From NCBI GenBank assembly GCA_000827495.1, contig KN817549.1, forward strand, positions 224,164-288,163: DNA of 64,000 nt, written 5' to 3'. The position numbers were made by a program, and so were the translations under genes. Origin of the DNA: Hypholoma sublateritium FD-334 SS-4 (taxonomy: Eukaryota; Basidiomycota; Agaricomycetes; Agaricales; Strophariaceae). Under the pieces are notes generated by a model, which was not told where the DNA came from, made no database searches, and saw only the letters and a list, made by a program, of their open reading frames with translations. This document shows, piece by piece, positions 3,931-51,822 of the stretch. Within the stretch, counting starts at the first letter, position 1; each line of letters opens with the position of its first letter.

Positions 3931-6900
3931 ATGGACGCCCTGATGCTGAACCAGCTCACCGAGGGGCTCGGCGACGACTTCTGGTCCGCCGTCCCGACTC
4001 CCGACCCCTCCCCCGTCAAAAAGCCACTCCGTCCCCCCATCGCCTCTTCCTCCGATACCCCCACCACCCCCACCCGCCGTCCCGCCCCAGCGAAAGCTTC
4101 CTCTTCCACACAATTTCCTACAGGTGGGTATGACCTCTCCGAGTTCCTTCAAGGTTCAGAGCACTGGGATCTCGACGAAGACCCGTTCACGCCCATCAAA
4201 GCTGCGCCCCCCAAGGCCAAGGTACGCCTCTAGTATTTTAGATGTCGCGTTTTCTGATTCATTGCATACAGGCTACTGTTACCGTCCCGAAGTACACGCC
4301 AGATCCGTGTACACGATGCGTAGTCCAGACGGTGGCTGACGAATATGTGAACAACCGCTGGCGCAAGGTGATTACTTCCTCATTTCATTTCCGCGTCATT
4401 CTTTCCGTGTTTCGTCTTTCCCTTGGTCTATACACCAAATTCCATTTTATCATCTGGCAGAGAAAGCACGGTCTTTCCTTCCAAAAAAAGGCGTTCCGTC
4501 GGATTTGCCCATGTTACCCTTGCGGCCGAATGATTTGGTCTCATAACATACTGATTTTGGCCAATTTTTTTTTGTATTTTATCATTATATCCACTCTCTC
4601 ATCTAGAACTATGCTAATTCCAATTAATAGGCTATAATAGGCAGAGTTGACAACGGATGCGAGCAAGTCTATGTGTATCTCTGCGATGAGTGGTACTACA
4701 CTGATATTCGCACCGGTACGTCGCCCTTGGCTAGAAATTTACGAATATTTTCACTTACATATATGAAGACGACGTCTTCAACGTACTGGGAACCTTCACT
4801 CCCGCCTGTTCATTGGGCCCGCGTACGATCAACATCACCGCCGCGGCGAATCTCCTCATCCTTCACCCCGATCTTCTTACCACGGCCACTGCGCTTTCCA
4901 CAGCACCACAATGCCGGCGAAAGCCCCTATTGGCGGGCCTCATACGCGCCACGAGCGACATCACACCCGCGCTGGTATACGGGAGCGTACTCCACGAAGT
5001 ATTGCAGGGTTGCCTACGCGAGGATCGATGGGAGCAGACTTTCCTCGATAAGTGTATTGAAGAGACCGTCCAAGCAATGCTCGGTGACCTGGTAAAACTC
5101 GGCGTCAGCGAAGAAGTCGCTCGCAGGGAGGTTGCTGACAGGGCCCGTGGGCTGATACCTTTCCAACAGAGATATCTGACTGACGAGCCAAAGGTGTGTG
5201 GTTTGTCAATGTTCAATTTAAATTCGACGCTGACTTACATATCACAGTCAAATGGTGCTCTCACAAATACACGAAGCAATCATGATGACGCCCCAGCACT
5301 GCTCGCTATCTCTAAGCTGCTCGACATCGAGGAGGATATCTGGTCCCCGACGTACGGCCTCAAGGGGAAGATCGACGCTACCGTGCAGGGCATCATCCTC
5401 GAACCCGTAGCTGCGCCCTCGAGGAACGGCAAGAAGCTCCCATTCGGCGGCATCATGCGCACGCGCACGTCGACCCCGCTGCCGCTCGAACTCAAGACCG
5501 GGCGCTCCAACGGCGGCATGGAGCACCGCGCCCAGACGCTTTTGTATACGCTGCTGCTCAGCGAGCGGTACGGAGTGGACGTGCAGGACGGGCTCTTGTT
5601 CTACTCGCAGAGCGAGGACGGGGGCGTCGTTCGCGTGCCGCGCGGCCGCAACGAGATCAAGGCACTCATCGGCGTGCGCAACGAGCTCGCGGCGTGGGGT
5701 TGGAGGCGCGTGCGGAAGAACAAGGGCACTAAAAGCGAAGATGTGAAGATGGAGGTGGTGGAGGAGAAGGAGAAGACGGTGCGTGAGGCGGACGAGGAGG
5801 AGGATGAAGGTCCGATCGAGCCGTTCCTCCCGGCGCCAATCGACGACGAGCGCGCGTGTAGGCGGTGCTATACGCTCGATACGTGCTTGCTGTTCCGAAA
5901 GACGCACCCTAACCATTCGGGGGACCAACAGGGGAAGAAGACGCGATATGACCCGCCCATTCCGGATTTTATGAAGGAAGTATTCGAGATGAAGACTGGC
6001 CACCTCACGGAGAGCCAAACGCGCTTTTTCCGCAAGTGGGAGGGACTGCTGGCCCTGGAGGAACGCGACTTGGTGCGGTTCAAACGCGAGCTGTGGACCC
6101 TTGGAAGTGCCGAGCGCGAGAAGCGCGGACGGTGCTGGAGCGGGATGGTGTTGACGGGGGAGAAAACAAAACAAGCGCCGAAGGCAGGTGTCGAGATCCT
6201 CTCGGAGACGAGCACGGAGAGCAAGATCCACCGCTTCACCTACGTGTTCGCGCGCTCAAGCCACTGGACGCCACCAGCGGGTCAGACGGCCAGCCTGCGC
6301 GATGGGCACCTGAACACGGGCGACCCTATCACGGTGTCCGTCGAGCCGAACATGCTTGCGCTCGTGAAGGGGTATATCCTCGAGCTCGGCGCGGCGGAGG
6401 TCGTCCTCGGCGTTGACCGAGCGCTCGACGTCTCCGCGCTTCGCGCGCGCGCAGGGCTCGCGTCTGGTACGGACCTCGTATTCCGCATCGACAAGGACGA
6501 GATGTTCGGCGGCATGGCGCGCATGCGAGGGAACCTCGCACACCTGTTCTACGCGGACGGCGACGCAAAGCGGCGCTCGCTGGTCGTCGACCTGCGCGCC
6601 CCGGTCTTCTCGCCGCCGACGCCGGCGTTCGACGCGGGCGCGCCGCAGCGCGCGCACTTCAACGCCTCGCAGAAGGAGGCGATGGCGCGCGTGCTCGCCG
6701 CGGAGGACTATGCGCTCGTGCTCGGCATGCCGGGGACGGGGAAGACGACGCTCGTCGCGGCGCTCATCCGCGAGCTCGTCGGGCGCGGGAAGAGCGTGCT
6801 GCTCACGTCGTACACGCACTCCGCAGTGGACACCATTCTCCGGGCGCTTGCGGGCGAGCGCGATGGGGCCGGGTGCGAGTTTGGCGTGCTGAGGCTGGGG

Positions 6901-8463
6901 AACCCAGACAAGGTGCACCCGGAGGTGCGCCGGTATACGCTCGCGGCGCGCCGCACGGCGACGACGGTCGCGCAGTTTGAGCAGCAGATTATGGCGCCGC
7001 CTGTTGTGGCGACGACGTGCCTATCGATTGACCAGTGAGTATTCGCGGCGAAGATCGTGGCGCGGTGGTTGATGTTGATTTTTTTTGCAGTCCGCTTTTC
7101 TTCCGGCGCAAATTCGACTACTGCATCGTCGACGAGGCATCGCAGATCACGCTCCCCACATGCCTTGGCCCGCTGCGTTTCGCGGACACCTTCGTACTCG
7201 TCGGGGACCACTTCCAGCTCCCGCCCCTCGTATGTTTGCCCTCCACGTTTGCGTCCACCCGACGGCGATAGCTAATTCTTCTTGCTGGTAGGTGAAAAAC
7301 GCAGAAGCGCGCAAAGGCGGTCTCGACGTGTCGCTCTTCCGGCGCCTGTCCGAAGCACACCCTGAAGCAGTCGTCGACCTGCGCTTCCAGTACCGCATGA
7401 ACGCGGACATCATGACGCTGTCCAACCGACTCATCTACAACGACCGCCTGCAGTGCGGGAATGACGAGGTGGCGAACGCCGCTCTGCGCCTCGAGGACAG
7501 GACATTTTTGGACAAGCTGCATGGCTCACATAGTGGGCGGGAGGGTGTTAAATGTCTGGGCGCGGATGCGTGTTGGCTCGAGGGATTGGCGGCGGAAAGG
7601 TATGTATAAACGCGCTCGGATTCTATAGGTGTAAGCGCTGACTGCAGGCGTTTCATAGCTGCAAGGCCGTCTTCGTGGACACGGACCTGCTGCCCGCGGC
7701 GGAGTCGCGCGTGGGCGACCTCGTGCAGAACCCAGTCGAGGCGGAGCTCGTGCGCCAGCTCACGGAGACGCTCGTGCGGAGCGGCGTGCAGGAGTCGCAG
7801 ATCGGTATAATTACACTGTACCGCCAGCAGGTTAAACTACTGCAGGGCCTCCTGCACGCGCGCCCCGACGTCGAGGTGCTCACCGCAGACAAGAGCCAGG
7901 GACGCGACAAGGACTGTATCGTCATCTCGCTCGTGCGCTCGAACGATGGCGGACATGTGCGTTTCTCTCCCCCTCCTCCCCGTGTGATAAAACATACTGA
8001 TAATGAGTAACCCGTACGCCAGATCGGCGACCTCGTCAAGGACTGGCGTCGCATGAACGTCTCCTTCACGCGCGCGCGCAAGAAGCTCGTCATCGTCGGC
8101 TCGCGGCGCACGCTGCAGCGCGAGCCGCTCCTTGCGAGCTTCTTCGCGCTGATGCAGGAGAAGGGCTGGATCCGTGCGCTCGCGCCGGGCGCGCACCGGG
8201 CGCATGCGCGCGTGTTCGACGTCACGGCGTCGCCTATGAAGCGCAGTGCGGGAGCACCGGAGGAAGACGCGCGCGTGGAGAGGGGTGGGGCGGCTGTTGT
8301 TTGTCGGAAGACGGCGCTGGCGAAGGAGAATGTGGGCGCCGCGCCGCGGCCGGTGAAGAAGCTTAAACTTAGCGCGGAGCCCCTCAAGGGCGTGAAGGGT
8401 GCAGGGGCGGGCGTGCTGAAGGGCCGCCCGATCCTGCGGGACCTGGTTGAGAACGAGACGTAG
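3931..8463 (+). CDS. dna2: DNA replication ATP-dependent helicase/nuclease DNA2
   Basis: Nuclear enzyme that cleaves and unwinds 5' flaps during Okazaki-fragment maturation and resects broken ends. Exons read as 3931-4221, 4272-4367, an exon near 4645-4715, then 4769-5193, 5248-7034, 7091-7229, 7292-7599, 7659-7956 and 8023-8463, giving nearly 1,290 residues. The RecB-like nuclease shows GKIDAT and LELKTGR. Its Fe-S cysteines are PQC and the CRRC...C cluster at roughly residues 200 and 500. The SF1 helicase shows [41 protein letters not shown] and [13 protein letters not shown]. Between 4368 and 4644 the frame cannot be closed with one intron, so a small exon is probably missing from my model. 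The gene sits between copies 1 and 2 of the oxygenase array. Confidence 0.93.
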
Positions 8464-8730: not shown

Positions 8731-9706
8731 TCAGTCGTAGAAAACAAGAGCACGAATCTCAATAGAACGGCGGGGAGGCGCCTCTGGGGGCGTCGTCGGA
8801 TCCTCGAAGCCGGTATGCGGCGTGAAAACGGCAACACTTCCGTCCTGGACCGAGTCGAAGCTATAAACACAGACCTCGTGAGCTACCTAACGTCTCCTGT
8901 GAGAAACAATACTTCTCACCACTTGATGAGCACGAGCTCCTCGGGGGTCATCCCGCGAAGATACTTCCACTTGTGGTTCTCGTTGTATGTCACTCCCAAA
9001 GTTTCGCCCTCGCGGTCGGGGGTCACGCGCGCTACTGGAAAAATGTCCTTTTTCTCATCGACGCTGCGGCAGTCGCAGAGCGCGAGGGGCCAGTCCAGAG
9101 CAGGGTGCTCGATGGGGCGCCAGAGGTTGATAATCTGGAAGCGCTTTTCGAGAAGCTTCGGGGCGTCGGCGGCGGGGAGATGGCGGTGCACGCGCGCGAT
9201 GGACGCCGAGGTCGATTGGTCGATATGAACCCGCGATACGGGCTGGCGTTTCCCTGCCACGTCCTCTTTGTCTCCTGGCCTGCGGCGCCGGAGGGCTGCA
9301 ATGATTGATATTGTTAGCTTTCACGGTGGGAGCGCGGGCAGTGCGTAGACTGACTGTGGTCGAAGATCTCGACGCGGCTCGCGCCGGTCAGCTTCTTTAT
9401 GATATCGACGCTCTCGGAGTAGTACTCCGTCTTGATGGTGGCCTCGTCGTCGAACGAAGCGGCAGTGAGCTTAGACGCGTGCTTGATGTATTGGAAACCG
9501 GTTGTGTCTAGCGACACGCTGTCCTCCTTGCCGCGCACGTCTTCGATGACCACTGCATGTTCTTCGGAGCCGTAGTTCTTCTTGTAATATTCCCCAGTGG
9601 CGGGATCTGGGCTAGTGAGGATGGTGTACTTCGCGCGCTCGCCTTTTGCTGGGGGAAGGCTGTACTGCAGGGTGGCTGTAGTCGTGTTTGTAGTTGAATT
9701 CACCAT
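8731..9706 (-). CDS. CmcJ/NvfI-type Fe(II)/2-oxoglutarate oxygenase, array copy 2
   Basis: Second copy of the array, 285 residues, with exons 9355-9706, 8920-9295 and 8731-8860. The lengths (352, 376 and 130 bases) are identical to copies 1 and 3. Splicing rebuilds FDHTLRRR and IKCFDS. The iron ligands are H and D of HIDQ plus the H of FTPHTGF, and RSIEIRALVFY carries the presumed 2-oxoglutarate Arg. Differences from the other copies are spread along the protein, with AKYTILTSPDP near the N-terminus and a DKEDVAGK linker. No stop or frameshift is present. Its 3' end faces that of dna2 only 267 bases away, and the downstream cccaaaaaggg motif is absent. All four copies could act on related substrates or be expressed under different conditions. 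Confidence 0.85.
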
Positions 9707-9751
9707 TGCGGCACGAATGAGGCAAATGTTGGGGTATGGGAGCGCCTCGAC

Positions 9752-10255
9752 ACCTTTTATACACTCCCGCTGAAATAGCATTCAGTCCGCGTTCTGACTT
9801 CATTCTCCAGCATTCTTGCGTGATTTGTTGATTGGAAATCCCTCACTTAAAAACAGAAACGGATTACTAACGAATGGCCTTCGACCGTGACTATTAGGTT
9901 GTACTGGTGGCTCTGGACTATTTCTGTTTAGAGTCTGTCATGGCGTTCATAGCTCAGTAATAGTAGAATTATTACTTCACACCTTCGAATATGGTTAACC
10001 GGTTAACCGGGGAAGCGAGGCCTGGCAGCCCGCAATGTCGCCACTCTCCAAGCCAGCATCAGCATCAGCATCCGCTGAATCTGTCGCTCCGCACCCTTGC
10101 CGCTCGATGTGAACGCCGATGCCGTATTTATGGTTCCAGTTGGAAACATATGCATAGAACGCAGCCGTTCTCAGCCGTTTCACCACTTTCACAGCACGGG
10201 ATTGCCGTATGATGCGACGTGCGGACTTACATAGTGGTAATGGAAATAAGCGCCC
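9752..10255 (-). promoter_or_regulatory. Upstream region of oxygenase copy 2
   Basis: TATA-like ttttataca lies at about 9754-9762. The shared proximal block (ttgcgtgat, gattggaaatc, acggattactaacg) spans about 9814-9873. On the gene's strand gattggaaatc reads as a CCAAT box. The distal ggaaataagcgccc is at 10242-10255, about 540 bases before the start codon. Confidence 0.55.
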
Positions 10256-10738: not shown

Positions 10739-11715
10739 TCAGTCGTAGAATACCAGAGCGCGAAGTTCAATGGACCTGCGGGGAAGCGCTTCTGCAGGTG
10801 TCGTCGGGTCCTCGAAACCGGTATGCGGAGTGAATACAGCAACACTTCCATCTTGGACAGAGTCGAAGCTGTTAACGCCGGACCCATGAGTTAGGACCCA
10901 TATCACCTTGACAAACAACAATACTTACCATTTAATAAGCACGAACTCCTCGGGAGTCATCCCGCGGAGGTATTTCCACTTGTGGTTCTCGTTGTATGTA
11001 ACACCGAATGTCTGGCCTTCGCGGTCGGGAAACACAAACGCAACTGGGAACACGTCTTTCTCCACGTCGACGCTTCGGTAGTCGCAGAGCGCGAGAGGCC
11101 AATCATACGCTGGGTGCTCAATGGGACGCCAGAGGTTGATAATCTGGAAGCGATTTTCCAAGAGCTTCGGGACGTCGGCAGCGGGAAGGTGGCGGTGCAC
11201 GCGCGCGATAGACGCTGGTGTCGTTTGGTCGACATGGACCTGCGCGACGGGTTGGCGCTTTCCCGCCTCGTTCTGTGTGTCGCCTGGCCTGCGGCGCCGG
11301 AGGGCTGTAAATGTTTAAAACATTAGTCCTCACGACAGGAACGCAAGCAGCGTGAAGACTGACTGTGGTCGAAGACCTCGACTCGACTCGCGCCAGTCAG
11401 CTTCTTTATGAGATCGACGCTCTCGGGGTAGTACACCGCTTTGATGGTGGCATCGTCGTCGAATGAGTCGGCAGTAAGCTTAGACGCGTGCTTATAGAAT
11501 TGGAAGCCAGTGGTGTCGAGCGACACGCTGTCTTCCTTTCCGCGGACGTTTTCGATGACCGCCGTCCTTTCCTCTGAGCCGAAGTTCTTCTTAGACAACT
11601 CGCCCGTGACCGGGTCGGGGGTCGTAAAAAAGTCGACGGCAGCGCGGTTGCCATCTGTAGGGGGAAGACCATATACCAAGGTCGCTGTAGGGGTGTTCGT
11701 AGAGGAGTTGACCAT
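10739..11715 (-). CDS. CmcJ/NvfI-type Fe(II)/2-oxoglutarate oxygenase, array copy 3
   Basis: Third copy, 285 residues, with exons 11364-11715, 10929-11304 and 10739-10868. The ATG at 11715 is used because the MVNS start and the distance to the first splice site match the other copies; an upstream in-frame extension is not conserved. FDHTLRRR and IKCFDS form across the introns. The HVDQ iron pair, the FTPHTGF histidine and the RSIELRALVFY arginine are all present. Its second and third exons read very close to copy 1 by eye. Nothing suggests inactivation. As with the other copies there is no targeting signal, so cytosolic action is likely. Confidence 0.85.
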
Positions 11716-11768
11716 TGTAGTTCGAGTGAGATGTAGCACAGTATGAAGTCACCACCTAAATCTCAACG

Positions 11769-12904: not shown

Positions 12905-13887
12905 TCAGTCGTAGAACACAAGAGTGCGAATCTCAATCGACTGGCGTGGAAGCGCCTCTGGAGGCGTTGTCGGATCCTCGAAACCGGTATGCGGCGTGAA
13001 AACGGCAACACTCCCATCTTGGACAGAGTCAAAGCTACGTATACAGCCCTAGTGAGCAACTTCGCGCTTTTAAGCAAATACCACGCCTCACCATTTAATA
13101 AGCACGAACTCCTCGGGGGTCATCCCGCGGAGGTACTTCCACTTGTGGTTCTCGTTGTACGTGACGCCGTAAGTCTGGCCCTCGCGGTCGGGGTATATGA
13201 ACGCGATGTCGAACACGTCCTTCTTCGGGTCGACGCTTCGGTAGTCGCAGAGCGCGAGAGGCCAATCGTACGCGGGGTACTCGATGGGCCGCCAGAGGTT
13301 GATAATCTGGAAGCGCTTTTCCAGGAGCTTCGGGACGTCGGCGGCGGGGAGATGGCGGTGCACGCGCGCGACGGCCGCCGAGGACGATTGGTCGACGTGG
13401 GCCTGCGCGACGGGCTGGTACTTCCTCGGCCTGTCCTCTTTCGAGTTGTCGACTGGCCCGCGGTGCCGGATTGCTGCAGAGATACATATTGTTAGTCCCC
13501 GCAACGAGCGCGCAAGTGGCATTGCGGAGACTCACTGTGGTCGAAGATCTCGACGCGAGTGGCACCCGTCAATTTCTTGATGAGCTCAACGCTCTCGGAG
13601 TAGTACTGCGTCTTGATAGTGTCCTCGTTGGTGAACGAGTCGGGCGTGAGCTTCGAGGCCTGCTTGAAGAATTGGAAGCCGGTGGTGTCGAGGGAGACGC
13701 TCTCTTCCTTGCCGCGCACGTTCTCTATGACCACCGTCTTTGGCTCCGAGCCGTAGTTCCTGCTGTTGAATTCGCCCGTGACTGGATCGGCCTTACTGAG
13801 AACCGTGTATTCGGGGCGCGAGCCGTCGGCCGGGAGCACGCCGTAGTGCAGGGTGACCGTAGTTGAGCTTGTAGCTGAATTGACCAT
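12905..13887 (-). CDS. CmcJ/NvfI-type Fe(II)/2-oxoglutarate oxygenase, array copy 4
   Basis: Fourth copy, 287 residues, with exons 13536-13887, 13092-13473 and 12905-13034. Exon 2 is six bases longer than in the other copies, adding two residues in the linker before QPVAQAHVDQ. Splicing gives FDHTIRHR rather than the RRR form of the other copies. The HVDQ and FTPHTGF ligands are kept, and the last motif reads RQSIEIRTLVFY, so the key Arg remains. It is the most divergent copy by eye, with SSSAAVARVHRH after the HxD motif. Its upstream region runs directly into the inverted duplication that starts near 14397. Confidence 0.85.
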
Positions 13888-13941
13888 TGTAGCTCAAACG
13901 AGGCGTGATGTTGGAGTATTGGAACCCCAGCCCACCCTCTG

Positions 13942-27376: not shown

Positions 27377-28752
27377 ATGAGCGCGCTGGTGGATGTACCT
27401 CCCTCTTTCGACCAGATATCGACTCCCCTCGTATTTCTAAGCCCGAGTACAGCTCATAATATAAACCTCGCGACGTATATCCACATTGCCTCGACCGGTG
27501 TAAGTTTACAATGGCCTAGAGAGGCGCTTTGATTGACCACCTCCAGATTCTGGTATGGGATGTCCTAAACAATCTGAGAAACGACTGGAGGATGGTCACC
27601 AGCTGTCGTAAATTGTGCATCACGATGGTTCTCTACTTCGTCATGAGGTGAAAACCGTCCTTCCACTTCATGTAATATGTTGATGAATGTCTCAATGCAG
27701 AATCGCATTATTAGCATATTCTATTGGGAGAACATTCCTGCTGAGTGCGTTGTGATGAGCCCTCCTTTACGCCGCCGGCTAAGAAACATTAATTCTGAAT
27801 TCAGCGGCAGAAATTGACAACTGCCGTGCACTACAAAACGCACTCATGGTGCTGATCATCGTTTCACTGGTCTGCGTTAAGACTTTCTTCTATCTTCGCG
27901 TGGTCGCCGTCTACGGCAGAAACCTGTACATTGTCGGCTTCTTTGGTGTGACCTGGCTGTCAACCATAGCAATGTCGTCAACGTTTTACAAGACATACGG
28001 CGCTGAGCACATCGGCCCCACTCACTATTGCCGTGAAATCGTCAATGGCAATCTCCTCATGGCAACTCTAGGCGTCCTTCTGACAAACGACAGCCTCATT
28101 TATATAGCCATCGCATACCGAATCTACCGCATCTTCCGCGATTATGACTTCGAGTCGACTTGGAAGAGAAAGGTTGTCATGTTGCTGTTCGGTGCTTCGC
28201 TGCCTGTGGGCTCGAAGGTCGTCATCCTTGAAAGCCAACTGTACTGCATGTGAGTTTCCCTTCAGATTTGAAACAGTGCCCCGTGGATTCTGACTCGATG
28301 CTCTCAGGCTCATTGTTATCAGCAAAATATTCCTGGTGGTTATGGTCGCCACAAACCAGGCCAAGAACTCTATGTTCGTAATTTGCCATTTGGTTATACT
28401 GGTCGTCCTAGTTTCCCGAGTGTACCGGGAGCTGCGGGAGATAGGTGGCGCAGGCCAGCGGGCGCCTGTGACAGATTTCCAAACGGAGGGCCTAACTTCC
28501 GCCGAATTTGTCAGAGCCGGCCAGACAGTGCAGGAGATGGGGAAGAATACAGAGATCGAGAAGGACGTCGCGTCCCTAGCGGGGTCCAGTATGCGCACGG
28601 CAAGCCTTAGCGCATCTATCCGCACCTATGCGAGCGATGAAAACCGAAGCGACTTCCGCCTGCATGCGTTGCGTAGCGGCGAAGGCGAATCCAGCCAGCG
28701 AAGTGGTTTTTTCCGGAGCGACATGAGGTCAGACACATTTAGCAAAGTCTGA
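27377..28752 (+). CDS. Seven-helix-like fungal membrane protein, paralogue 1
   Basis: 344 residues from five exons: 27377-27499, 27547-27647, 27701-27744, 27805-28249 and 28308-28752. The sequence has an N-terminal lumenal or extracellular stretch, then LVWDVLNNLRNDWRMV. About six hydrophobic helices follow, including ITMVLYFVMRIALLAYSIG, NALMVLIIVSLVCVKTFFYL, VGFFGVTWLSTIAM, TNDSLIYIAIAYRIY and FVICHLVILVVLVSRVY. A polar, probably cytosolic tail of about 100 residues contains DFQTEGLTSAEFV. It belongs to a large basidiomycete-specific family with no known function; a receptor-like topology is only an impression. IGPTHYC with its cysteine and EIDNCRAL are shared with the paralogues at 32709 and 36799. 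Confidence 0.8.
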
Positions 28753-32708: not shown

Positions 32709-34064
32709 CTATACATCGTAAGGGTATTCCTTTCCGTGAGGGTAACTCGACTCGTTGACAGTGTCTTGTGGAATAGCGGCAGAGGCGGAACCTTTCGGTG
32801 GTAAAGGTGTTTTAATGGACGATGCATCATCTTGTATTTCCATCATCGACCGTTTTGATGCCCGTTCTTGAACGGTTATATTGACTTCGTGCACAAATTC
32901 AGCAGAAGTCAAGTTTCCTGTCTGGAAATCTCGGTTGGCATTCCTTTGTTGAGCTATCCGGCCAGTATCCTTTAGCTGGCGATAGACACGGGATATGAGA
33001 ATCGTGGCCAGAACTACGTGGAAGATGAAGAATTTTGCGTTTCTACCCTCATTACCAGACACCAATGCGAGGACAAGACCTTTGCTCATGACAACAATCC
33101 TAGTGTACTATCGCGTGAGTCGCGTAAAAATCTGGGTATAAATAAACAGTCTTACAAGCAATACAGTTGACTTTCGAGGAGGATAAACTTGTGTCCGATT
33201 GGCAAGGATGCACCGAACAGAATAATCGCACATTTCCTCCTCAAAGTCGTATTGAAGTCATAGGTGAGGAAAATGTTGTAAATGCGATAGGCGATGGCGA
33301 TGTAGATCAAAGAGTCGTTGATAAATAACACAATGAGGGTAGGAATGCCGAACACCCCATGAACTGATTCCTGGCAGTATTGCGTTGGTCCGATTTTTTG
33401 TGCTCCAAATGTTTTGAACAGCGTTAATGACATAGCTACCACAGAGAGGTAGGTCAGAGCGAAGAAACCCAGGACGTATGGGTATGGCCGATAAACAGCA
33501 ACTATCCGAAGGTAGCATAGTCCAGTTTCTCCAATTACCGCGATGGTAAGCATGGTGGTCATCACTCCAGCCAATTGTTCGCAGTTCTCCACGGGTAAGG
33601 CTTAATGAAGGTCGTCCGTCTTAGCTGAAATCGCGTCAAGACAAGATAAATGGCGTACTCAACAAAGCAGCCCTTCCAAAGCAATACACCAGAAGCGTAA
33701 GCCTGTGTAAGTAATTACGATCAAGCATTCGATTAGAGCGTGAGTGCTATATAGTCGACTCACCTGACAAGAAAATAGACAAAGGTTGGGACGTTGAACT
33801 TGTAGGCGGAGAATAATCGATAGTCATTTCTCAGATTATTGAGAAAATCCCATAGATAGATCTGGTACCAGAACAGTACAAGCAAATGTTAAGGGGCGAC
33901 GAAGAGCACAACTCAGACGAACTTACACCAGTTGCGCAGAAGTGAAAATACACTGAAAGGTTGATCTCATGCACCACCGAAGGCGATAAGAATATGTATG
34001 GTGTCGAGACCTCTGCCAACGGAATACTGCTGTTGAGGAATGGGACGCTCACAGAGGTAGACAT
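32709..34064 (-). CDS. Seven-helix-like fungal membrane protein, paralogue 2
   Basis: 371 residues from exons 33927-34064, 33764-33861, 33659-33702, 33156-33600 and 32709-33099. Exons 3 and 4 (44 and 445 bases) are exactly as long as in paralogue 1. Shared motifs are LWDFLNNLRNDYRLF, LRIVAVYRPYPYVLGFFALTYLS, IGPTQYC, NDSLIYIAIAYRIYNIF and GASLPIGHKFILLESQLYC. The tail has DFQTGNLTSAEFV, nearly the same as in paralogue 1. That points to a functional cytosolic motif and not free drift. Intron 3 uses the acceptor at ttcattaag to avoid an in-frame stop. Function is unknown. Confidence 0.8.
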
Positions 34065-36798: not shown

Positions 36799-38116
36799 AT
36801 GGCCTTCATCTTTAACACCACCATCCCTCTGAATGAGCTCCCTACACCACTGATACTCCTTCCTCCGCACGAGGTCCATAGTGTTCTTCTGTCGACATAC
36901 ATCCACCTCGGGACATTTTCGGTATGGAATATACTGCATCGCTGAGATCCTGTTAACTGCCTAACGCGCTCGGACTCTGGAGCGCAGATACTGGTCTGGG
37001 ATGTCATCAATAACCTTAGGAACGACTGGAGACTTGTCTCATCCTCCAAACAGGGTATTCCCACTTCAGTCTATTTTACAACTAGGTATTTTATGAGCAT
37101 CAATGAGGCGATCTCCGAATTAACGGATGGTCGTGTAGGATATCGCTATTGGCCTATGCAGTGGGCCGCGCGCTTCTTCTGAGTAAGCCCTACCTCGCGG
37201 CTGAGCATATTTTCGCGCATATCTAATTCGTGCACACGTCATGATCACTAGCGCACCCGATTAAAGATTGCGCCAAGTTCCAGGACGCACTGAACTGGTT
37301 CCTAATCGTCTTCGTCGCCTCGACCGCACTCCTCTTCTATATCCGCGTCTGTGCGCTGTACGCGATGAAAAAGGCAGTCATTGGGTTCTTTGGCATCTTC
37401 TGGCTTGCCACGGTTGCCATGGCTGGCACTTATTCCAAGACGTTCTCCGCCGAAAACATAAGGACAACCGAATACTGCTTAGAGCGACCGGCGGGTGATC
37501 TCCTCGGCCCAGCGCTCGTAGTCCAGCTGGCGAACGAGCTTTTCTTGTACCTCGTTGTGGCATACAAGGTCTACGCGCTCCTCGTTGCCAACCTCCTTTC
37601 CAGAAGCGCGGTGGGTTCTTGCTCGTGGAATACCACGCTATTTGCCGTTACGCGTTTTGCGGTATTAGAGCCGCACCTATATTGTTTGTGCGTTGGGTAC
37701 CTCTCTTTCTCACTCCGTGAGTACTGACCTTTGTCCACAGATGCATCGTTGCCACTAAGGCATTCCTCGTGTGCGCCGCGTATGCCTTCCACCCACCGGT
37801 CGACGCGATGTTCATCATCGTGCACCTTATCTTGACGAACGTCTGGTCGGGGCGCATGTACCGGGCGCTACAGCCGACAGCGCGTCCGGTGCGCGAGCTG
37901 CCTATGATATCGCAGGCAGAGTTCGAGATGCGCTTTGGGCGAAGCCCACAGCCGCCGCCATCTCAGCATCCCGGCGGGGAGCAGACAGGCAGTCCAGATT
38001 TTACGTCCACGCAAAACTCCTCAGTGCGTGTGGCGGACGAACACAATGCCGACGCCAATGAATTAAAAAGAACGTCGACAAGTATATACAGCATCAGGAG
38101 GGACTGTAAGATGTGA
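36799..38116 (+). CDS. Seven-helix-like fungal membrane protein, paralogue 3
   Basis: 358 residues from exons 36799-36921, 36988-37085, 37139-37182, 37252-37687 and 37741-38116. All intron phases match the other two paralogues, and exons 1 and 3 have the same length as in paralogue 1. Motifs include LVWDVINNLRNDWRLV, LLAYAVGRALLL, DCAKFQDALNWFL, VIGFFGIFWLATVAMAGTYSKTFSAENI, ANELFLYLVVAYKVYALL and LEPHLYC. IGPTxYC is replaced by IRTTEYC, and the tail DFQT-TSAEFV motif is reduced to ISQAEFEMRF. It is the most divergent copy but has no stop or frameshift. Function is unknown. Confidence 0.78.
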
Positions 38117-39735: not shown

Positions 39736-42700
39736 CTACATGGCCTCCGCCTGCTCAATGAGCGACAGTGCCTTTGGTCCGCGTGGACGGATGTCACAAC
39801 TGAATGGGCTCGGTGACCTACATACATGAACGTTAACACCAACCCATTACAAAACCGAGTGTTATCAAACCCTCAACGCACCTGAAGATCGGGTTCTCAA
39901 ACTTGACTTCTGGTTCAAGAACGTTCCCGTGCTCATCCACCGCTTTCGATATATTCAGGGTGGCGAGCATTGACACGATGAGAACCCACACCGACGACTC
40001 AACGAGATGTTGCCCGGGACACAGTCTGTATGTGTTTAATTAGAAAATGGCCAACGGGGATAACGAAATGATCATTGGAGGAGCGGAACTGACCTCCGAC
40101 CAAATCCGAACACATAGTTTCTAGGGTCCATCCGCTGAGTCACCTCAGCACTGCGTGGTTCGAGGAAGCGCTCAGGCTTGAACGCGTCTGGTTCGGGGTA
40201 CATCTCTTCGTTCCTCAGTATCGCCCTATCAAACCCAGCAGATTAGCCTCGACACCCAAATCCGTGAGCCAGGCTACTAAAACGCACCAGATATTACCGA
40301 ATACCAGCGAACCCTTGGGGATGAACATGCCCTTGTACACATTGTCCTCCATCAACCTGTGAGGGAGATCTAATCAGGGGGCGACACCGTCAGCATCATC
40401 CACCCTTGTCTCGGCACACCCAGAGCTCGAAATACCCACTCAACGGCACGGGGGCGGCCCATCGCAGCGTCTCACTGAAGATGGCTTCGACTGTACATGC
40501 AACCATTTCCAGCACGAGCGAATCAGTTACCTTGCACGAGACAAAAATAAGAAAAGGGACGCACCGAAAGGTAATTCTGCCCGATCCTCAAAGCTTGGCA
40601 GGCGGTCCGCACCAACAACAGCGTCAATTTCCGCCTGGGCGCGGCGTTGAACCTCGGGATGCAGCAGCATCGCAAGGATGAAATGCGAGACCACCGTAAT
40701 AGTCTGAAGGTACCGCGTAAGCCACGATCGAACAGGCCCCTGCGCGTGAAAGGACATACCGCATCCATGCTCGCCGAGTACATTGAATTCGCGCTCCACT
40801 TGAGGTCAAATTCAAAGCGCTCACGATCACCGCCGTCCATGCCTTCGTCCTCCAAGAGCATGGAGCACAGGGAGGGCTTGTAGTTACCTGACTTCTGTAT
40901 TGACGTGAAACAATCAGCCAGCCGCCCACACCCCGCCTGAGCACGCGGCGGGGATCAAAGTCAGAGTATCACACAAAACATACCAAGCTACTCTTCACAA
41001 ACTCATAAGGTTTGTCCACAAACTCCTCCATCTTCTTCTTCCATGCGCGCGCACTGCGCTTGAATCCGCCCCCGGGGACCCACTCCGGGATGTATTGTAG
41101 AGATGGTAGGACATCAACCGGCCACACGCCACCGCCCGACGCAATTTTTTCGCTAAGGATCGCAACACACTCCTCGGCCAGCCGGAGGAATGGATCAACT
41201 TCGCTTTCACTACCGCCTTTGTCTTTTGAGCGGTGAGCATTTGCAATGCTTGCACTGCCGTTGGTCGGTGAAAGCCCAGTGGCCTTGGCGGGGACAGGTT
41301 GGTAGCCGTAAACAACACTGAGTATCGAGCCGCCTGTGTATCGCCTAATATGCCCCGTGTAAAGGGCGGGCTCCTTGACAAGTGCGCGGAGGAAGGTATG
41401 GGTGCTAGTGAGGAGGAGTGGGTGATACTGTGGAATGGTGGGGATGCCGAGCGCCTTGTGCAGCAACCTGCGATGACGCTTGGATTGCTCCCCATAGGGA
41501 GTGAATGCGACCTAGAGGAGAGGCACGCGTTAGAACATGAAGTCCCAAAAAATGATGCAGAGCCAGCAATAAAAACAATGTAACTGGAAGCGGTAACATA
41601 TCCTTTTCCATCAAAACAAAAGATTCAATGGCCCCATATTAATCTCGTCCCATTAATGCAATATAAAAAGCACTCCAACGGATAATGAGAAGTCTTTTAG
41701 AAGCGTTCCCTTCCTTCCCTTGAAGAAGACACGGTAATCAGAGAGACAGGAACTTTAAGAACCACACCTATAGGCTCGCGAACCCCCAGTGCGGATGCTA
41801 CGTGAGGGGCAACACCCGGTCGATCGCGGGTTGTCGGAAGTCCGCTTCGTCATCGCATTCCACGGGTAATGCTTCGGCCCAGAGCAATAGGATTTGGGCG
41901 ACATGCATAAAGTATGGCAGTGGTCGGTGTAAGACAGCTGCACTTGCAAGAAGATAGGAAAGGTATAAAAAAAAGAATAGACATCTCTGCCAAGAAGAAT
42001 GAAGAGCAAACAATAATGAGAATCAAAAGCAAACTTGAAACATAGCATCAACTAGGAGAGCCATTTGCAATGCTAAGGTGTCGGCGATGATAAATGGGTG
42101 AAATATGGCACGACCCACGCAGAGACCCACAGAACGAGAAGCAGAATGGAAAGGACGATGAAGAATGGGATATCCGCTCACCATATTTTTGCACCCGCAT
42201 CTGTCGGACCACGGATAGAGTAGGCAGAGAAGGGTTGAGAAAGTTCCGAATAGTGATCATGATCCCAATAGGATTCCGATATATTGATGTCATTTTAAGT
42301 GCCAGTGTCGATGCGATTAGATGGCAGTGGTGATTTGAGTGGGCGGACAAGGTAGGAAAGTGTTAGCACAACGAAACGAAAAGCGGCGCGGGTCAATCAA
42401 GCTGGATTCAGATCGGAAGAAAACTTGGAGGGAAAGGCGAAGGTGGCTAGAAGCTCTAAGTGTGAGACGATCCGGGTCACCAATCTCAGCACAATGCACA
42501 TGGGTAGAGCATACCGACAGCTCTAGCGCGATTTACGCTGCCAACAGTAAGAAAGAAGAATGATACACCAAAACTGACGCGCGAAACTATGGGGTTTGAG
42601 CGCATATATGCATGGAGACGAATGTGTGACATGCGCGAAGCTTCCCCTGCTCATATGAAGTAAAACGGAACGCGGTTTACCAAAGCTGGCAGCTCCGGCG

Positions 42701-46003: not shown

Positions 46004-46544
46004 AATATAGTACAGTAGAGGTGAGCAATTTCCGCCAGGTTCTGGTTATATCTCCTGACAGCGATTCCATGTGCAGTGTATTTTTTGTATCAGGATCACC
46101 GCACTGCTCAGAGCGTAATTCCTACGCCACACTGGTCAGGTTACTTTTTCTCTTGTATCCAGAATTCGACCGATGATGCCTGTAATCACCGCCTTCTCTC
46201 GCTGCTCCCTTTTCGTGACTGATTTACCAGGACGATCGATCTTCTGATAAGCGTCCCACAACTTCAACGCTCCTCCTCTCATTAACTCCCACGACTAGCA
46301 TCTTAGTTTTTAAACTTACAAAAATAACCTCAGGGCACGCGTTGAGGGCTTCAGCGGACCGCGCTCTTATCAATGCCATATGGCGTAACGGCTTTCTCGT
46401 CCTTCCTTCCGTGCGAGTCGACGAATGTGCTCGCCAGCGTGACAAAGCCAGCTATAAATCTGAACAACATGGAGCATGCCTTCCTGAGCGTCGTCCTTCT
46501 CACCATCGCAGCAAATCCAGCAACAGCGTACAAAGAGATTCGGC
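46004..46544. other. Intergenic, nothing recognised
   Basis: 540 bases, probably terminator sequence and the promoter of the first carboxypeptidase gene. Short open frames on both strands are not supported. Confidence 0.4.
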
Positions 46545-48635
46545 ATGAAGACATTAGGATCGCTTCTGGCACTGACACCGTTGCTGGTGCACGCGACTCC
46601 AGTCGTCGACACGAGTGCCATCCAACAGGCGCCTGTCGTGCAGCGCTTTACTTCCTCGAGCAACCCTGATATTTCTTTGCGATTCGTGGCGGACTCGGGA
46701 GTATGCGAGACCACGCCGGGCGTGCACCAGATGTCAGGCTACATTGACGTTGGAACCAACATGTCGATGGTATGTGGATTGTCTCTGCGCTTAGCGCAAC
46801 TTCTTCAAGTTCCTAATCGTCGCTTCAGTGGTTCTGGTTCTTCGAATCAAGGGAGGCGCCTGAGATTTCCCCGTTCACACTTTGGTTGAATTTTCCTTCA
46901 ATTTTTTTTTGATCGGGCAAGTTTAAACTAACTGCTTCGGCCGTTCCAGGCTAAATGGTGGGCCTGGATGTTCCTCGATGATTGGATTGTTCCAAGAAAA
47001 TGGGCCTTGCCATGTCAATGCTGACGGTGCTACCACGACTCTCAATCCATTTAGGTATGTCCCCAGTGTTCTTCCTAATTTCTTCTTGACTGAAACAAAT
47101 GAGTGTAGTTGGAACAATATCAGCAATAGTAAGCGATCACTTTATACTATGCTACGTACCTTAGACCTTCAGCAACTCCTTTTCAGTTATATACATTGAC
47201 CAGCCCATCGGCACCGGGTTCTCATTTGGAAACGACACCGTTAACAGCACCGTATCAGCCGCCCCGTTCGTCTGGCAGGCCTTCCAGATCCTCTTCGAAA
47301 GCCCGCAGTTCGAGAAATTCCGGCGCCGAGAGTTCATTTTTGCTACGGAAAGCTACGGCGGCCACTATGGCCCGGCCTTCGTCACTTTCTTCGACCAACA
47401 AAACAAGCTTATCGACGAACATCAGCTAAAGGGAGTGAAGATTACAGTCAGCGCTCTGATGATTAACAAGTAGATCTACGCTTGACTTTGTCACTTGCCA
47501 AGCGAGCTGACAACTGCATCGCAGTGGGTGGTATGACCCCCTTATTCAAAACGAGGCCTATGTGACTTTCGCCACGAATGCGCCTGGTTATGGGCAACTG
47601 CAAAATGACTCTGTCATTACCTCGCTAAACCAGGCATTCTTCGGTCCTGGAGGATGCCAAGAACAGGAAGAAGCCTGCTTTGCCGCTGGAACTGGACCGG
47701 AATCAAATGAAGTATGCGGGACTGCAGACAATTTCTGTGTAAGTCCATTCCATTAATCAATTCGCTTGAAATACAACTCACTGTCTGTTCCAGATTGAAA
47801 ATGTGTTCGTGCCGGCAGTTGGCGATCGCGACGACAATGACCTGCGTCAAACTGCTCCGGGATCATTTCCTCCAGAGTTTTACCTCACTTTCTTACGCTC
47901 TGCCTCCGTGAAAGCCTTGATCGGAGCGAACTCGACATATCACGAATGCGCCAACGCTCCAGACGCTTTATTCAGTAAGACGGGAGATGTATGTACATAT
48001 TTCAATTCTAATCGCTTCCCGAGAATTCACGCTAAAGACGACAAGGACGCGAGGACATTGTTACCCCAACTAGCTGCTTTGGTTAACTCCGGACTCAAAA
48101 CCCTACTTTGGGTATGTATTGCTCTGCGTGGTAAAATGGGTCCTAATCTCTGAAAATCATGTTAGGCCGGCGACGCAGATATCAAGTTGGTTTTTCTGCC
48201 GGAGTCATACAGCATTGAGTGCTTATTATATACCTTCGATTAGCTGCAACTGGCTCGGGGGGCATGCCTCGGCGTTGGCAATGGACTGGTTTGGGAAAGA
48301 ACGTCTCGCCAATACGCCGTTTACGAATATGACCATCAATGGAGCGGCCGTGGCCGCGATACAAAACGTGGACAATTTTTCATTTGCGTAAGCCAATGCT
48401 ACGCACTTTTCTGCATGTAAACAATGGAATGACCATCTGGCTCATATAGGCGCGTGTATCAATCTGGACATGAAGTGGTATATACTGTTTACCTCATCGC
48501 AAAATCGGTTCTGAATATTCTTTCTTTCCTTAGCCTGCATTCCAACCACAAGCCGCTTTTGCGATCTTCAAGCAGATCGTCCTTGGAGAGCAGTTACATT
48601 CGGTTGCAGGAAATCTTAGAAAATCATCGTTGTAG
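46545..48635 (+). CDS. Secreted serine carboxypeptidase (S10), tandem copy 1
   Basis: Secreted or vacuolar exopeptidase that removes C-terminal residues, 485 residues. Twelve exons: 46545-46769, 46829-46884, 46950-47054, 47109-47128, 47187-47469, 47525-47738, 47794-47988, 48046-48111, 48166-48185, 48244-48387, 48450-48477 and 48534-48635. A signal peptide ([17 protein letters not shown]) is present. The oxyanion region is [12 protein letters not shown], the catalytic Ser lies in [11 protein letters not shown], the Asp in WAGDADI and the His in SGHEVP. Several NxS/T sites and cysteine pairs suit a secreted glycoprotein. Two exons are only 20 bases long. Exon phases and most lengths equal those of the next gene, showing a recent tandem duplication. 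Confidence 0.93.
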
Positions 48636-49012
48636 CACGAGCGAGGATTATGCCAATACCGCCAAGTTTTGCAATGCATACTGTAACTGATCTGCTCCTC
48701 TTCAAGTCGTCATTTGAAATATACCCCAGGCTACCAAACCTCGTTATCGCACATCTGCTGACTTCGGCGGCGAACACCGCATGGTGTCTGGTTCTCCAAG
48801 ATTTTCAACGTCTGGAAGTTTAAAATAGCTGGTGAGCCCCAAAAATAGCTTAGATCGTACAGGCTACTGTTATCGCAGCCATATGGCAATAATGTGCATC
48901 CTTGTGCATTGATATTAATATTCGAATAAAAGGGAAGAAACTTACGGCGCACGATGGGTGCACGACAACCCTGCGATTACCCGTCAAGAGTCAAAGCAAG
49001 TGGCTGCCCGTC
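48636..49012. other. Intergenic between tandem carboxypeptidase genes
   Basis: 377 bases, the terminator of copy 1 and the promoter of copy 2. No further feature was seen. Confidence 0.45.
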
Positions 49013-51095
49013 ATGAAAGGATCCTCTGCGTTGTTAGCACTGTTTTCAACCCTCTCACTATGGGCAACCCGAGCAACTCCAATCGTCTCGACGGAGCCAA
49101 CTCTGAATCACTTTGCCTCGACAGCCAATCCTAACATATCTTTGCAATTTGTCGCTGATTCTGGAGTGTGCGAGACTACTCCTGGCGTCCATCAGATGTC
49201 AGGATATATCAATGTTGGAACGGGCATGTCGATGGTACAAACAATCATGGTCACTGCAGTTTAAAAGTCTAACCAGTCAAACAGTGGTTCTGGTTCTTCG
49301 AATCCCGGAATGCCCCAGAGACAGCTCCATTTACACTCTGGTAACATCATGCACACCTACCTTTCTTAGCTCTACTTGAACTGATTACTTATACGTATAA
49401 TACGACAGGCTTAATGGAGGCCCTGGCTGTTCCTCGATGATTGGACTGTTCCAGGAAAATGGGCCTTGTAAGGTCAATGCCGACGGTGCCACAACTGTAC
49501 TCAATCCATACAGGTAAGGACGTTTTTCGCCCTCAGTATGACATATCGTTAATAACCACCTTCTGCTTTCTCCAGTTGGAATAACATCAGTAACAGTGAG
49601 TATGCAGTCAAGTTCTGATTTTATTCGTTGATAAAGGGTCCATCTACGCTGACAGTGATATATATCGACCAACCTATCGGGACTGGGTTCTCCTTTGGAA
49701 CCGATACAGTCAATAGCACAATATCAGCAGCCCCCTTTGTCTGGCAGGCTTTCCAGGTCTTGTTCGAAAGCCAACAGTTCTCGAAGTTTCAAAGCAGAGA
49801 ATTTGTCCTCGCTACGGAAAGTTATGGTGGCCATTATGGTCCCGAGTTTGTCACCTTCTTTGACCAGCAGAATGCACTCATTGACTCCGGGAATATTGTT
49901 GGGGAGAAGGTCACAGTTAGCGCGCTCATGATCAATAAGTATAGAACTTTTTTGATGATTATCTGTCCACGCTCAGTATGCTTTGTTTATTTAGCGGTTG
50001 GTACGACCCTCTGATTCAGAATGAGGCATATCTCGATTTCGCCACCAATGCTCCGGGATACGGCCAACTTCAGTCCAACGCTGTTCTTCAGAAGATGAAT
50101 ACCTCATTCTTTGGACCCGGGGGCTGCAAAGAGCAGGAAGAGGCCTGCTACGCTGCAGGAAATGGCACCGCGTCTAACAAGATCTGCATAGCAGCAGATA
50201 ATTTCTGTGTATGTTTGATATCCCAATAACTACATGAAAGACAACACTGACGAGGCCTGCCTTATTTTGTTGTGCAGGTTGACAATCTTTTTGTCCCGGC
50301 TGTGGGTAACCGCGACTCCGATGACCTCAGACAAAATTCCTCGGCCCTTTTTCCTCCGGAGTTCTACGTAAACTTTTTGCACTCAACCTCCATCAAAAAT
50401 AAAATTGGCGCACAAACGACATATCAGGAATGTCCAGACGCTCCTTTCGAGTTGTTTGAGAAAACGGGTGATGTAAGATGTTTCGTAGCTATCTGTCCGT
50501 CGATTGATCATCACGGCGGAAATATAGGACGCAAGAACCCTCCTTCCACAACTTGGTGCGCTTGCGAACTCTGGACTTAAAATTCTGATCTGGGTACGCC
50601 ATTATCTACTCAAAAGAACTGTATGCGCTGAAAGGCCTGGACATCTGACAGGCAGGGGACGCGGATATAAAGTTAGTACACGTTCACGCATTCGTACATG
50701 TGAAGTGTTCGTTGACCTTTTCATTTCAGTTGTAACTGGTTAGGCGGACATGCCTCGGTACTGGCTATGGATTGGTACGGCCACGACCGCCTCGCGGCAA
50801 CCCCATTCACAAATATAACCATCAACGGAACACCTGTGGCAGCGATACAGAATATTGATAACTTCTCCTTTGCGTAAGTTCGGGTACGCTCTGTTATCGA
50901 TCTTTACATTTTCTCATGAGAGAACTAGTCGAGTCTACCAAGCTGGCCATGAAGTAGTGAGTGCCGCGATCGAATGATTACTTTTCAATAGGCTCATTAT
51001 TACTTGCAAAATAGCCCGCCTTTCAGCCGCAAGCCGCCTTCGAGATTTTCCAACAGATCATCAACGACGAGCAATTGCATTCGGTCACTGTTTAG
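49013..51095 (+). CDS. Secreted serine carboxypeptidase (S10), tandem copy 2
   Basis: 477 residues with the same twelve-exon plan as copy 1: 49013-49234, 49285-49340, 49409-49513, 49576-49595, 49656-49938, 49995-50208, 50278-50472, 50528-50593, 50652-50671, 50730-50873, 50929-50956 and 51015-51095. Exons 2-11 match copy 1 base for base in length. A signal peptide ([20 protein letters not shown]) is present. The triad is intact in [17 protein letters not shown] and AGHEVP, with [10 protein letters not shown] forming the oxyanion hole. The site after splice 4 reads [11 protein letters not shown], against [11 protein letters not shown] in copy 1. The C-terminus is seven residues shorter. It converges on the Kex2-repeat precursor only 305 bases away, whose C-terminal basic residues an S10 enzyme could trim. 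Confidence 0.93.
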
Positions 51096-51400
51096 ACTAT
51101 AAAGTATGTCGAAACAAAGCTGTGTTGTATCTCCATAGCCTTTCTCCTTTCGATTCAAACTACGAACAATTTGCAGCACATTATGGGAGTCGAGGTTAAG
51201 TATAACGTTATGGTGAGTTATTGTAAGTGGGCTAAATAAACGCAATAGGTATAGTAGCGGGCAAATCAAGGCGGCACCTGAACTGTCTAGTGAGACGGTA
51301 TCAAGAGGATCTGAAGACTCATAATAAAGAACGTGATGGACCTAAGAGAGTTCCTTGAAAGGCGGCCATATTTCTACAAGATATGGAACGAGACATGAAA
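51096..51400. other. Short convergent intergenic region
   Basis: 305 bases shared by the 3' ends of the second carboxypeptidase gene and the repeat-peptide gene. Nothing else was recognised. Confidence 0.45.
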
Positions 51401-51722
51401 TCAGTTCGCGGCTACAGCGTCACGCTTCCAGTCCTTGTTGCGGTAGACTTCAGCTTCAGCGGTACGCTTCCAATCTTTGTTGCGGTAGAAGGCTTCAGCG
51501 TCGGCCGTACGCTTCCAATCTTTGTTGCGGTAGACCTCAGCATCGGCCGTACCCTTCCAGTCTTTGTTGCGGTAGACTTCAGCTTCCTACAATTTGTGTA
51601 AATACCTAGATGAACAACTGCTGAATTTCAATCAGTCCGTTGACGGTACTCACTGCAACAGGCGCAGCAATGCCACTGGTGACGCAGACCGCAAGCAAGA
51701 TAGCTGCAACTGAGAAGCGCAT
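51401..51722 (-). CDS. Secreted Kex2-processed repeat peptide precursor (RiPP-like or signalling)
   Basis: 84-residue precursor from two exons, 51654-51722 and 51401-51586, joined by a 67-base intron with a perfect GTGAGT donor. The signal peptide MRFSVAAILLAVCVTSGIAA is followed by PVA and four repeats. Each repeat holds the invariant hexapeptide YRNKDW, preceded by EAEV, DAEV, DAEAF or EAEV. Three repeats end in KR, the Kex2 site; the first ends in KG. After each KR come TA-DA or TA-EA dipeptides of the kind trimmed by Ste13-like aminopeptidases, and the protein ends DAVAAN. The layout recalls yeast alpha-factor and the dikaritin/epichloecyclin-type RiPP precursors of fungi. There is no CaaX end, so it is not a standard basidiomycete pheromone. 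No UstY-like enzyme was seen nearby. The mature product is inferred only. Confidence 0.82.
51407..51586 (-). repeat. Coding minisatellite, four units of 42-45 bases
   Basis: DNA repeats with invariant taccgcaacaaagaytggaag cores encode the YRNKDW peptides. Unit lengths are 42, 42, 45 and 42 bases. Synonymous and non-synonymous changes fall mainly in the spacer, so the core peptide appears to be under constraint. Confidence 0.85.
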
Positions 51723-51810: not shown

Positions 51811-51822
51811 TTTATATACCCT
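51811..51822 (-). promoter_or_regulatory. TATA box of the repeat-peptide gene
   Basis: On the minus strand the sequence reads cagggtatataaagg, a near-consensus TATA box about 90 bases before the ATG at 51722. Such a strong TATA box fits a highly or conditionally expressed secreted peptide. Confidence 0.55.

Follow-up and report, generated by a model that had tools for sequence, protein, structure and literature searches.

The window analysed here is a stretch of 64,000 nucleotides from the mushroom Hypholoma sublateritium FD-334 SS-4 (Agaricales), taken from contig KN817549.1 (C32:224164-288163 in our numbering of contigs) of a genome that was searched as 46.1 Mb in 281 contigs. We focus on a small gene on its minus strand, which very probably encodes a KEX2-processed repeat protein (KEP) with alpha-factor-like maturation. 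The gene extends from 51722 to 51401, coding part and intron included, and consists of two exons with a predicted product of 84 residues; the model is drawn from the reading frame and from a relative, the protein P0121. A first-pass annotation of the window had given the coordinates 51401..51722, which are correct, without naming the strand.

Translation starts at an ATG at 51722 and ends with a TGA at 51403..51401. Exon 1 (51654..51722) encodes a putative signal peptide, MRFSVAAILLAVCVTSGIA, followed by APVA; the signal peptide was assigned by eye, and the signal region of P0121 is similar. The exon is separated by a phase-0 intron of 67 nt (51587..51653, GTGAGT...TAG), placed by reading the splice sites, from exon 2 (51401..51586), in which the frame and a tandem-repeat scan delimit four repeat units, the tail DAVAAN and the stop. 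The translation reads MRFSVAAILLAVCVTSGIAAPVA in exon 1 and EAEVYRNKDWKG, TADAEVYRNKDWKR, TADAEAFYRNKDWKR, TAEAEVYRNKDWKR and DAVAAN in exon 2. The intron had already been proposed in the first-pass annotation, and P0121 supports it: in a BLASTP alignment, 21 extra residues of the relative fall exactly at the predicted splice junction. The predicted P0121 protein appears to begin 5′ of the ATG and to read through the intron, like the output of a bacterial gene caller. Approximately 96 nt 5′ of the focal ATG, a TATA-like TATATA (51813..51818, minus strand) lies inside TATATAAAG, a match at the level of the consensus only.

Repeats, conservation and predicted products

The repeat units form a tandem array at 51422-51583 (period 42, 3.8 copies) with a score of 234, which ranks first among the window's 18 tandem-repeat rows; a single irregular unit exceeds the others by exactly one codon. 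The core YRNKDW is found at 51557..51574 (copy 1), 51515..51532 (copy 2), 51470..51487 (copy 3, with F before the core) and 51428..51445 (copy 4), all on the minus strand. Four repeats with an invariant core and KR after repeats 2-4 had been described earlier, and this description is borne out: all four cores are exact, and dibasic Kex2 sites KR follow copy 2 (51509..51514), copy 3 (51464..51469) and copy 4 (51422..51427). Copy 1 is followed by KG (51551..51556), which is not dibasic; the equivalent place in P0121 is occupied by KR. X-Ala dipeptides, which were said to stand before each core, do occur upstream of all four, but EV is the dipeptide next to the core in copies 1, 2 and 4, and copy 3 has EA followed by F in this place.

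Among 915 frames of the window (stop to stop, at least 40 aa), a six-residue word occurs at least three times in two, namely the focal frame and a poly-Ser run, and a control of 20 first-order shuffles gave one such frame in 19,584. The codons of the four cores differ at two sites, both synonymous, where a random core substitution has a chance of approximately 0.17 of being synonymous. These differences hint at selection but do no more than that, because homogenisation between copies may occur and two sites are too few for proof.

Used as a protein-search query, the 84-residue precursor gave zero matches at E 10 or better among 462 candidates, with accepted proteins limited to approximately 46-147 aa; this is no evidence of uniqueness, because P0121 (164 aa) lies outside the accepted lengths. 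A longer chimeric query, for which the 8000 candidates with most words in common were scored, returned seven proteins at E 10 or better. P0121 (ENA, six member sequences, 1163-bp contig) is a relative of the focal gene at E 2.7e-32 and has five units, with YRNQDW once, YRNKDW four times and KR after all five. Over the nine units of the two proteins, core residues agree in 53/54 cases and residues at the KR place in 17/18, against 42/54 for spacer residues when gaps are allowed (Fisher core vs spacer, p 0.002); without the first copies the counts are 42/42 for the core and 36/42 for the spacer, again with gaps allowed (p 0.026). A right-justified spacer count gives 35/54 (p 7e-6), or 29/42 without the first copies (p 8e-5), but penalises the two odd-length units, and the milder, gapped figures are taken as the basis. 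As units are not independent, all of these p values are only indicative, and the high probability given to a KEP does not depend on the core-spacer contrast. The comparison of core and KR sites with spacers in a homologue, which the first-pass annotation had suggested, favours the gene moderately: in P0121, the one relative at hand, core and KR drift more slowly.

With the Kex2 cut as starting point, the spacers show a dipeptide register. In copies 3 and 4 of the focal gene, the only two included, Ala or Pro fills 5/6 second places of the dipeptides and 0/7 first places; the corresponding figures are 8/11 and 0/12 in P0121, and 21/25 vs 6/25 and 17/17 vs 4/17 in two further precursors of the same genome, on contig C242 and at C32:222 kb. 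Pooled over the three precursors of the genome and P0121, this amounts to 51/59 second places and 10/61 first places, a count that leaves out residues before the first Kex2 site, core-less segments and the whole of a precursor on contig C12. Focal copies 1 and 2 fall outside it, since KG puts both before the first Kex2 site. Ala or Pro at alternate places is the pattern expected of trimming by a dipeptidyl aminopeptidase, and therefore fits it.

Maturation of the focal precursor can be outlined on this basis. Signal peptidase would cut after ...SGIA. In the Golgi, Kex2 would cut behind each KR, which a Kex1-type carboxypeptidase would strip, and a Ste13-type dipeptidyl aminopeptidase would take off pairs of X-Ala and X-Pro, stopping at EV or FY. 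We infer every one of these cleavages from known protease specificity. DPPIV-type enzymes cleave behind X-Ala or X-Pro, except where the next residue is Pro, and trimming simulated by this rule gives linear EVYRNKDW from copy 4, FYRNKDW from copy 3, the remnant AN and the 22-residue EVYRNKDWKGTADAEVYRNKDW; two clean peptides and one double are predicted because the uncut KG after copy 1 would leave copies 1 and 2 joined. From P0121, with its intron-derived residues removed, the same simulation yields three copies of EVYRNKDW and one of VYRNKDW, plus VVEAKAYRNQDW and EFEAAN, a tail left untrimmed. Judged from the sequence, the likeliest mature form is EVYRNKDW or something close to it, rather than bare YRNKDW. 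The several copies of (EV)YRNKDW anticipated in the first-pass annotation are thus predicted in kind, as EVYRNKDW and FYRNKDW, but in fewer clean copies than expected, whereas the KR sites, the Ala/Pro register and the retention of core and KR in P0121 are as the Kex2 and Ste13-type maturation that it proposed would predict.

Further precursors and candidate processing enzymes in the genome

The genome contains at least three further precursors with Trp-ended cores. The C242 precursor (1311-1872 of locus L003), found by protein search at E 0.12, has nine GSPVQGW-type cores. The precursor at C32:222034-222510, on the minus strand, has seven TPPGW-type cores and a last unit that ends PPGWK just before the stop; it lies approximately 1.7 kb left of the window and 53 kb from the focal gene. 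At C12:462 kb (L061), five GSGTTDW-type cores with KR and five GSSTEDW cores with RR are found, and Ste13 spacers are absent. All four precursor models, including that of the focal gene, have a short signal-peptide exon 1, whose end lies in or close to AAP, followed at once by a phase-0 intron; with splice sites chosen by eye, the three other introns measure 64, 66 and 150 nt beside the 67 nt of the focal gene.

Pattern searches bear on how complete this set is. The fixed pattern W-K-R-x-A-x-A has 49 matches in the genome and 33 in a reversed control; three of the matches belong to the focal gene and five to the C242 precursor, the rest being mostly single and chance-like, and the match at C32:222137 proved to be a KEP. 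A gapped W-KR pattern has 52 matches against 23 in the reversed control, and four loci carry in-frame open arrays when the matched letters are read (the focal gene, C32:222 kb, C12:462 kb and C242). The W-ended set is a biased sample, because the gapped pattern demanded W before the Kex2 site. Two candidates were rejected as KEPs: C74:135019-135104 has two overlapping W-KR matches, but its unit contains an in-frame stop, and C49:34721 (E 0.38) was dismissed on reading its sequence.

The remaining proteins returned by the chimeric query include P0122 (NCBI), which is probably related to the C242 gene and apparently read in a wrong frame, P0123 (Termitomyces sp. Mi166), whose cores are mostly PGW-ended, and P0124 (JGI), with mostly GSGTQDW cores resembling those of C12. 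Two more, P0125 and P0126 (both E about 0.8), have the appearance of W-ended KEPs; the last, P0127 (E 7.3), is unrelated. Against Pfam, the focal precursor matches only Cbm74, at E 7.5, with no match to MF_alpha; P0121 has a chance-like match to DUF6765 (E 0.0077, below its cut-off), and a match of the C32:222 kb precursor to MBD (E 1.3e-4, 11 residues, 22 bits with a cut-off of 21) is taken as a repeat artefact.

Candidates for the processing enzymes are present. P_proprotein, the proprotein-convertase P domain that stands behind the kexin catalytic domain, gives four exon matches, which fall at two places on C5 and a single one on C8; these three places agree with the number of kex2 genes, also three, published for Coprinopsis cinerea and other agaricomycetes (PMC9769878). 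DPPIV_N has a single locus, on C30 (two exon matches), and S10 carboxypeptidases give 37 exon matches on twelve contigs. A search for the STE2 receptor (PF02116) found no match in the genome, and gave no match in control genomes either.

Comparison with known peptides and rival explanations

KEPs are an established class in the Basidiomycota. Those with a clear Ste13 signature were reported in 2019 and called surprising, as mating pheromones there are of the a-type (PMC6339444), described elsewhere as another, lipid-modified type (PMC9769878). A survey of 317 Basidiomycota strains put the number of KEPs at 1680 (PMC7329392), and many basidiomycete KEPs with a Ste13 motif and a terminal Trp were noted in 2022 (PMC9769878). 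The 2019 pipeline required at least four fragments (PMC6339444), and the focal protein, with four cores and three KR sites, gives four; as for the Ste13 signature, XA/XP stands in register after the Kex2 site and a DPPIV-family gene is present in the genome at the domain level.

Among described proteins, KEP 490115 of C. cinerea, KEP 1091723 of Pleurotus ostreatus and KEP 1439342 of P. eryngii have a signal peptide, putative in the focal precursor, and resemble the latter in their dibasic-separated repeats and in XA/XP before a short Trp-ended core, which in Pleurotus ends in DW, as in the focal gene (PMC9769878). These Ste13-motif KEPs differ from it in their cores, QYKAPSW and SGVAADW as opposed to YRNKDW, and in that focal copy 1 lacks a dibasic site. 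The same source reports that KEP 490115 is cut by Pichia pastoris, with removal of the XA/XP motif, to give W-ended peptides; that Pleurotus fruiting bodies contain linear W-ended peptides of the SGVAADW type derived from Ste13-motif KEPs; and that the peptide SGTGEASAADW was detected in Lentinula (PMC9769878). Basidiomycota KEPs with an alpha-pheromone plan (PMC6339444, Fig. 7b) share KR and repeated Ste13 dipeptides with the focal protein, their cores being compared as far as the main text gives them. The ascomycete alpha-factor precursors (MF-alpha) follow the same plan of Kex2, Kex1 and Ste13, but the focal protein has neither an MF_alpha match in Pfam nor an alpha-factor core.

Gene anatomy, conservation of the core in one relative and the dipeptide register, all observed directly, point to a KEP, and the gene fits the published Agaricomycete plan, the KG that follows copy 1 being the one exception. 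Calling it undescribed, as the first-pass annotation did, holds for the core and the relative as far as searches reach, but not for the class, already described in 2019-2022. The string YRNKDW has no match in open-licence PMC texts, a search that stops short of supplementary tables and the KEP lists in them. Neither YRN nor KDW occurs in the main texts, as distinct from the supplementary lists, of PMC6339444, PMC7329392 and PMC9769878.

Several points weigh against this reading. The signal peptide is a by-eye call, the Ste13 and Kex1 candidates are identified by Pfam domain, conservation comes from a single relative, and the C12 precursor of the same genome, excluded from the register count, has no Ste13 spacers. 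In addition, the first unit may be in decay, since copy 1 lacks a Kex2 site and its counterpart in P0121 has an irregular core, YRNQDW. Decay could extend to the whole gene, as a non-functional KEP kept by recent ancestry alone; the KG after copy 1 and the mere two synonymous core differences, which are compatible with recent duplication or gene conversion, speak for this. We consider it unlikely, given an open frame, intact splice sites and four intact cores, and given that P0121 has another copy number yet keeps core and frame. Least probable of the alternatives is a structural secreted repeat protein, similar to the repellent Rep1 of Ustilago, whose fragments would coat hyphae without signalling. 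Rep1 peptides are longer than the focal cores, which have 6-8 residues and are charged (R, K, D) and hydrophilic. The comparison draws its force from the Kex2-cut peptides of Rep1, which form amyloid-like fibrils (PMC9769878).

The first-pass annotation had also raised a ribosomally synthesised and post-translationally modified peptide (RiPP) cyclised via Tyr or Trp; neither the RiPP reading nor cyclisation finds support in the present analysis. In its dikaritin (ustiloxin-class) form, Kex2-cut cores would be cross-linked via Tyr or Trp by UstYa-type oxidases; we regard this as very unlikely. The likeness lies in a repeat precursor that Kex2 would cut and whose core contains Tyr, and UstYa genes do exist in the genome, with 39 exon matches to UstYa (DUF3328) in an exon-wise search whose counts are lower bounds. 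None of the 39, however, lies on C32, and a P450 search in which 92/289 candidates were scored put no place on this contig. Pfam finds no UstYa, tyrosinase or P450 in the 30 frames scanned among the 165 window frames of at least 100 aa; families above cut-off are S10, Dna2/AAA, Na_Ca_ex and SSF, with no peptide-modifying family, and ten of the 30 scans were repeated at E 10, though small exons and the 135 other frames may hide something. DUF3328 genes lie near 6.1% of all Basidiomycota KEPs (PMC7329392), and the KEP peptides confirmed by mass spectrometry in four agaricomycetes are linear and minimally modified (PMC9769878). A point against a plain linear KEP is that DUF3328 is found near 17/76 KEPs homologous to putative Basidiomycota pheromones, a higher share than that overall 6.1% (PMC7329392).

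For a KEP of this kind, the most likely product is a secreted linear peptide that would act between cells or on neighbours, either as a signal or as a factor in biotic interactions. A signal role for the class is unproven, and weighing against it are six kep knock-outs in C. cinerea reported without a phenotype (PMC9769878), which give no hint of a KEP role in axenic growth; the KEP peptides assayed in the same study showed no antibacterial activity. For the question of which roles precursors of the alpha-factor type play in basidiomycetes, the focal gene supplies a peptide that can be tested (EVYRNKDW / FYRNKDW) and whose core persists in a relative. The four W-ended precursors of this genome, which share an exon plan, constitute a small set for joint study.

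A broader proposal, which we regard as doubtful but worth stating, is that Trp-ended secreted peptides, mostly Ste13-trimmed, constitute one mushroom signal family. It would consist of several parallel genes in each genome, with one exon plan and differing cores (EVYRNKDW, TPPGW, GSPVQGW and GSGTTDW), in which the terminal Trp would serve as a shared recognition element. The Trp rule is biased here, because the pattern search required W before the Kex2 site, and the terminal Trp may instead be a mere protease preference, or the genes may be of separate origin. If the proposal were true, these peptides would resemble alpha-factor as signals, yet work without an alpha-factor receptor, and perhaps be imported in the manner of Qsp1 (NFGAPGGAYPW) of Cryptococcus. 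Qsp1 is not known to be made from a repeat precursor. It is, similarly, a secreted basidiomycete peptide that ends in Trp and is released by proteolysis, and its import via Opt1 (PMC7537855, PMC9426920) is for the focal peptide a working analogy only.

Neighbouring frames and other observations

Next to the focal gene lies a tandem pair of S10 serine carboxypeptidase genes on the plus strand (window positions approximately 46500-51100, with matches within 46951-47443 and 49410-49876), the second of which is convergent with the KEP gene. One 102-aa S10 exon of the pair has carboxypeptidase Y as its best match among solved structures. The pair was considered as a dedicated Kex1, but no functional link is drawn from adjacency, given the carboxypeptidase Y match and the occurrence of S10 on twelve contigs. 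A P450-looking frame at 40972-41511 has no Pfam match even at E 10. Elsewhere in the genome, UstYa matches are grouped at C31:236-243 kb, C136, C81, C65 and C135, which may represent dikaritin-type clusters.

Two sets of similar frames were noticed by eye in the window. Four frames on the minus strand (1716-2508, 8919-9781, 10928-11748 and 13091-13893) share the pattern MVNS.T...T.TL.Y... and form a local paralogous family; the two that were scanned (1864-2508 and 9317-9781) have no Pfam match. Three similar membrane-protein-like genes are located at 27783-28749 (+), 32712-33601 (-) and 37245-38113 (+), with the motifs LRVVAVYGRN, LRIVAVYRPY and IRVCALYAMK, and no Pfam match was found in their scanned frames (27783-28250, 32712-33107 and 37245-37724). 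The Dna2 frame at 4735-7035 has a top ENA protein at 88% identity, and its best matches with a species name come from Pholiota conissans (63%), Flammula alnicola (60%), Galerina marginata (58%) and Crepidotus variabilis (56%).
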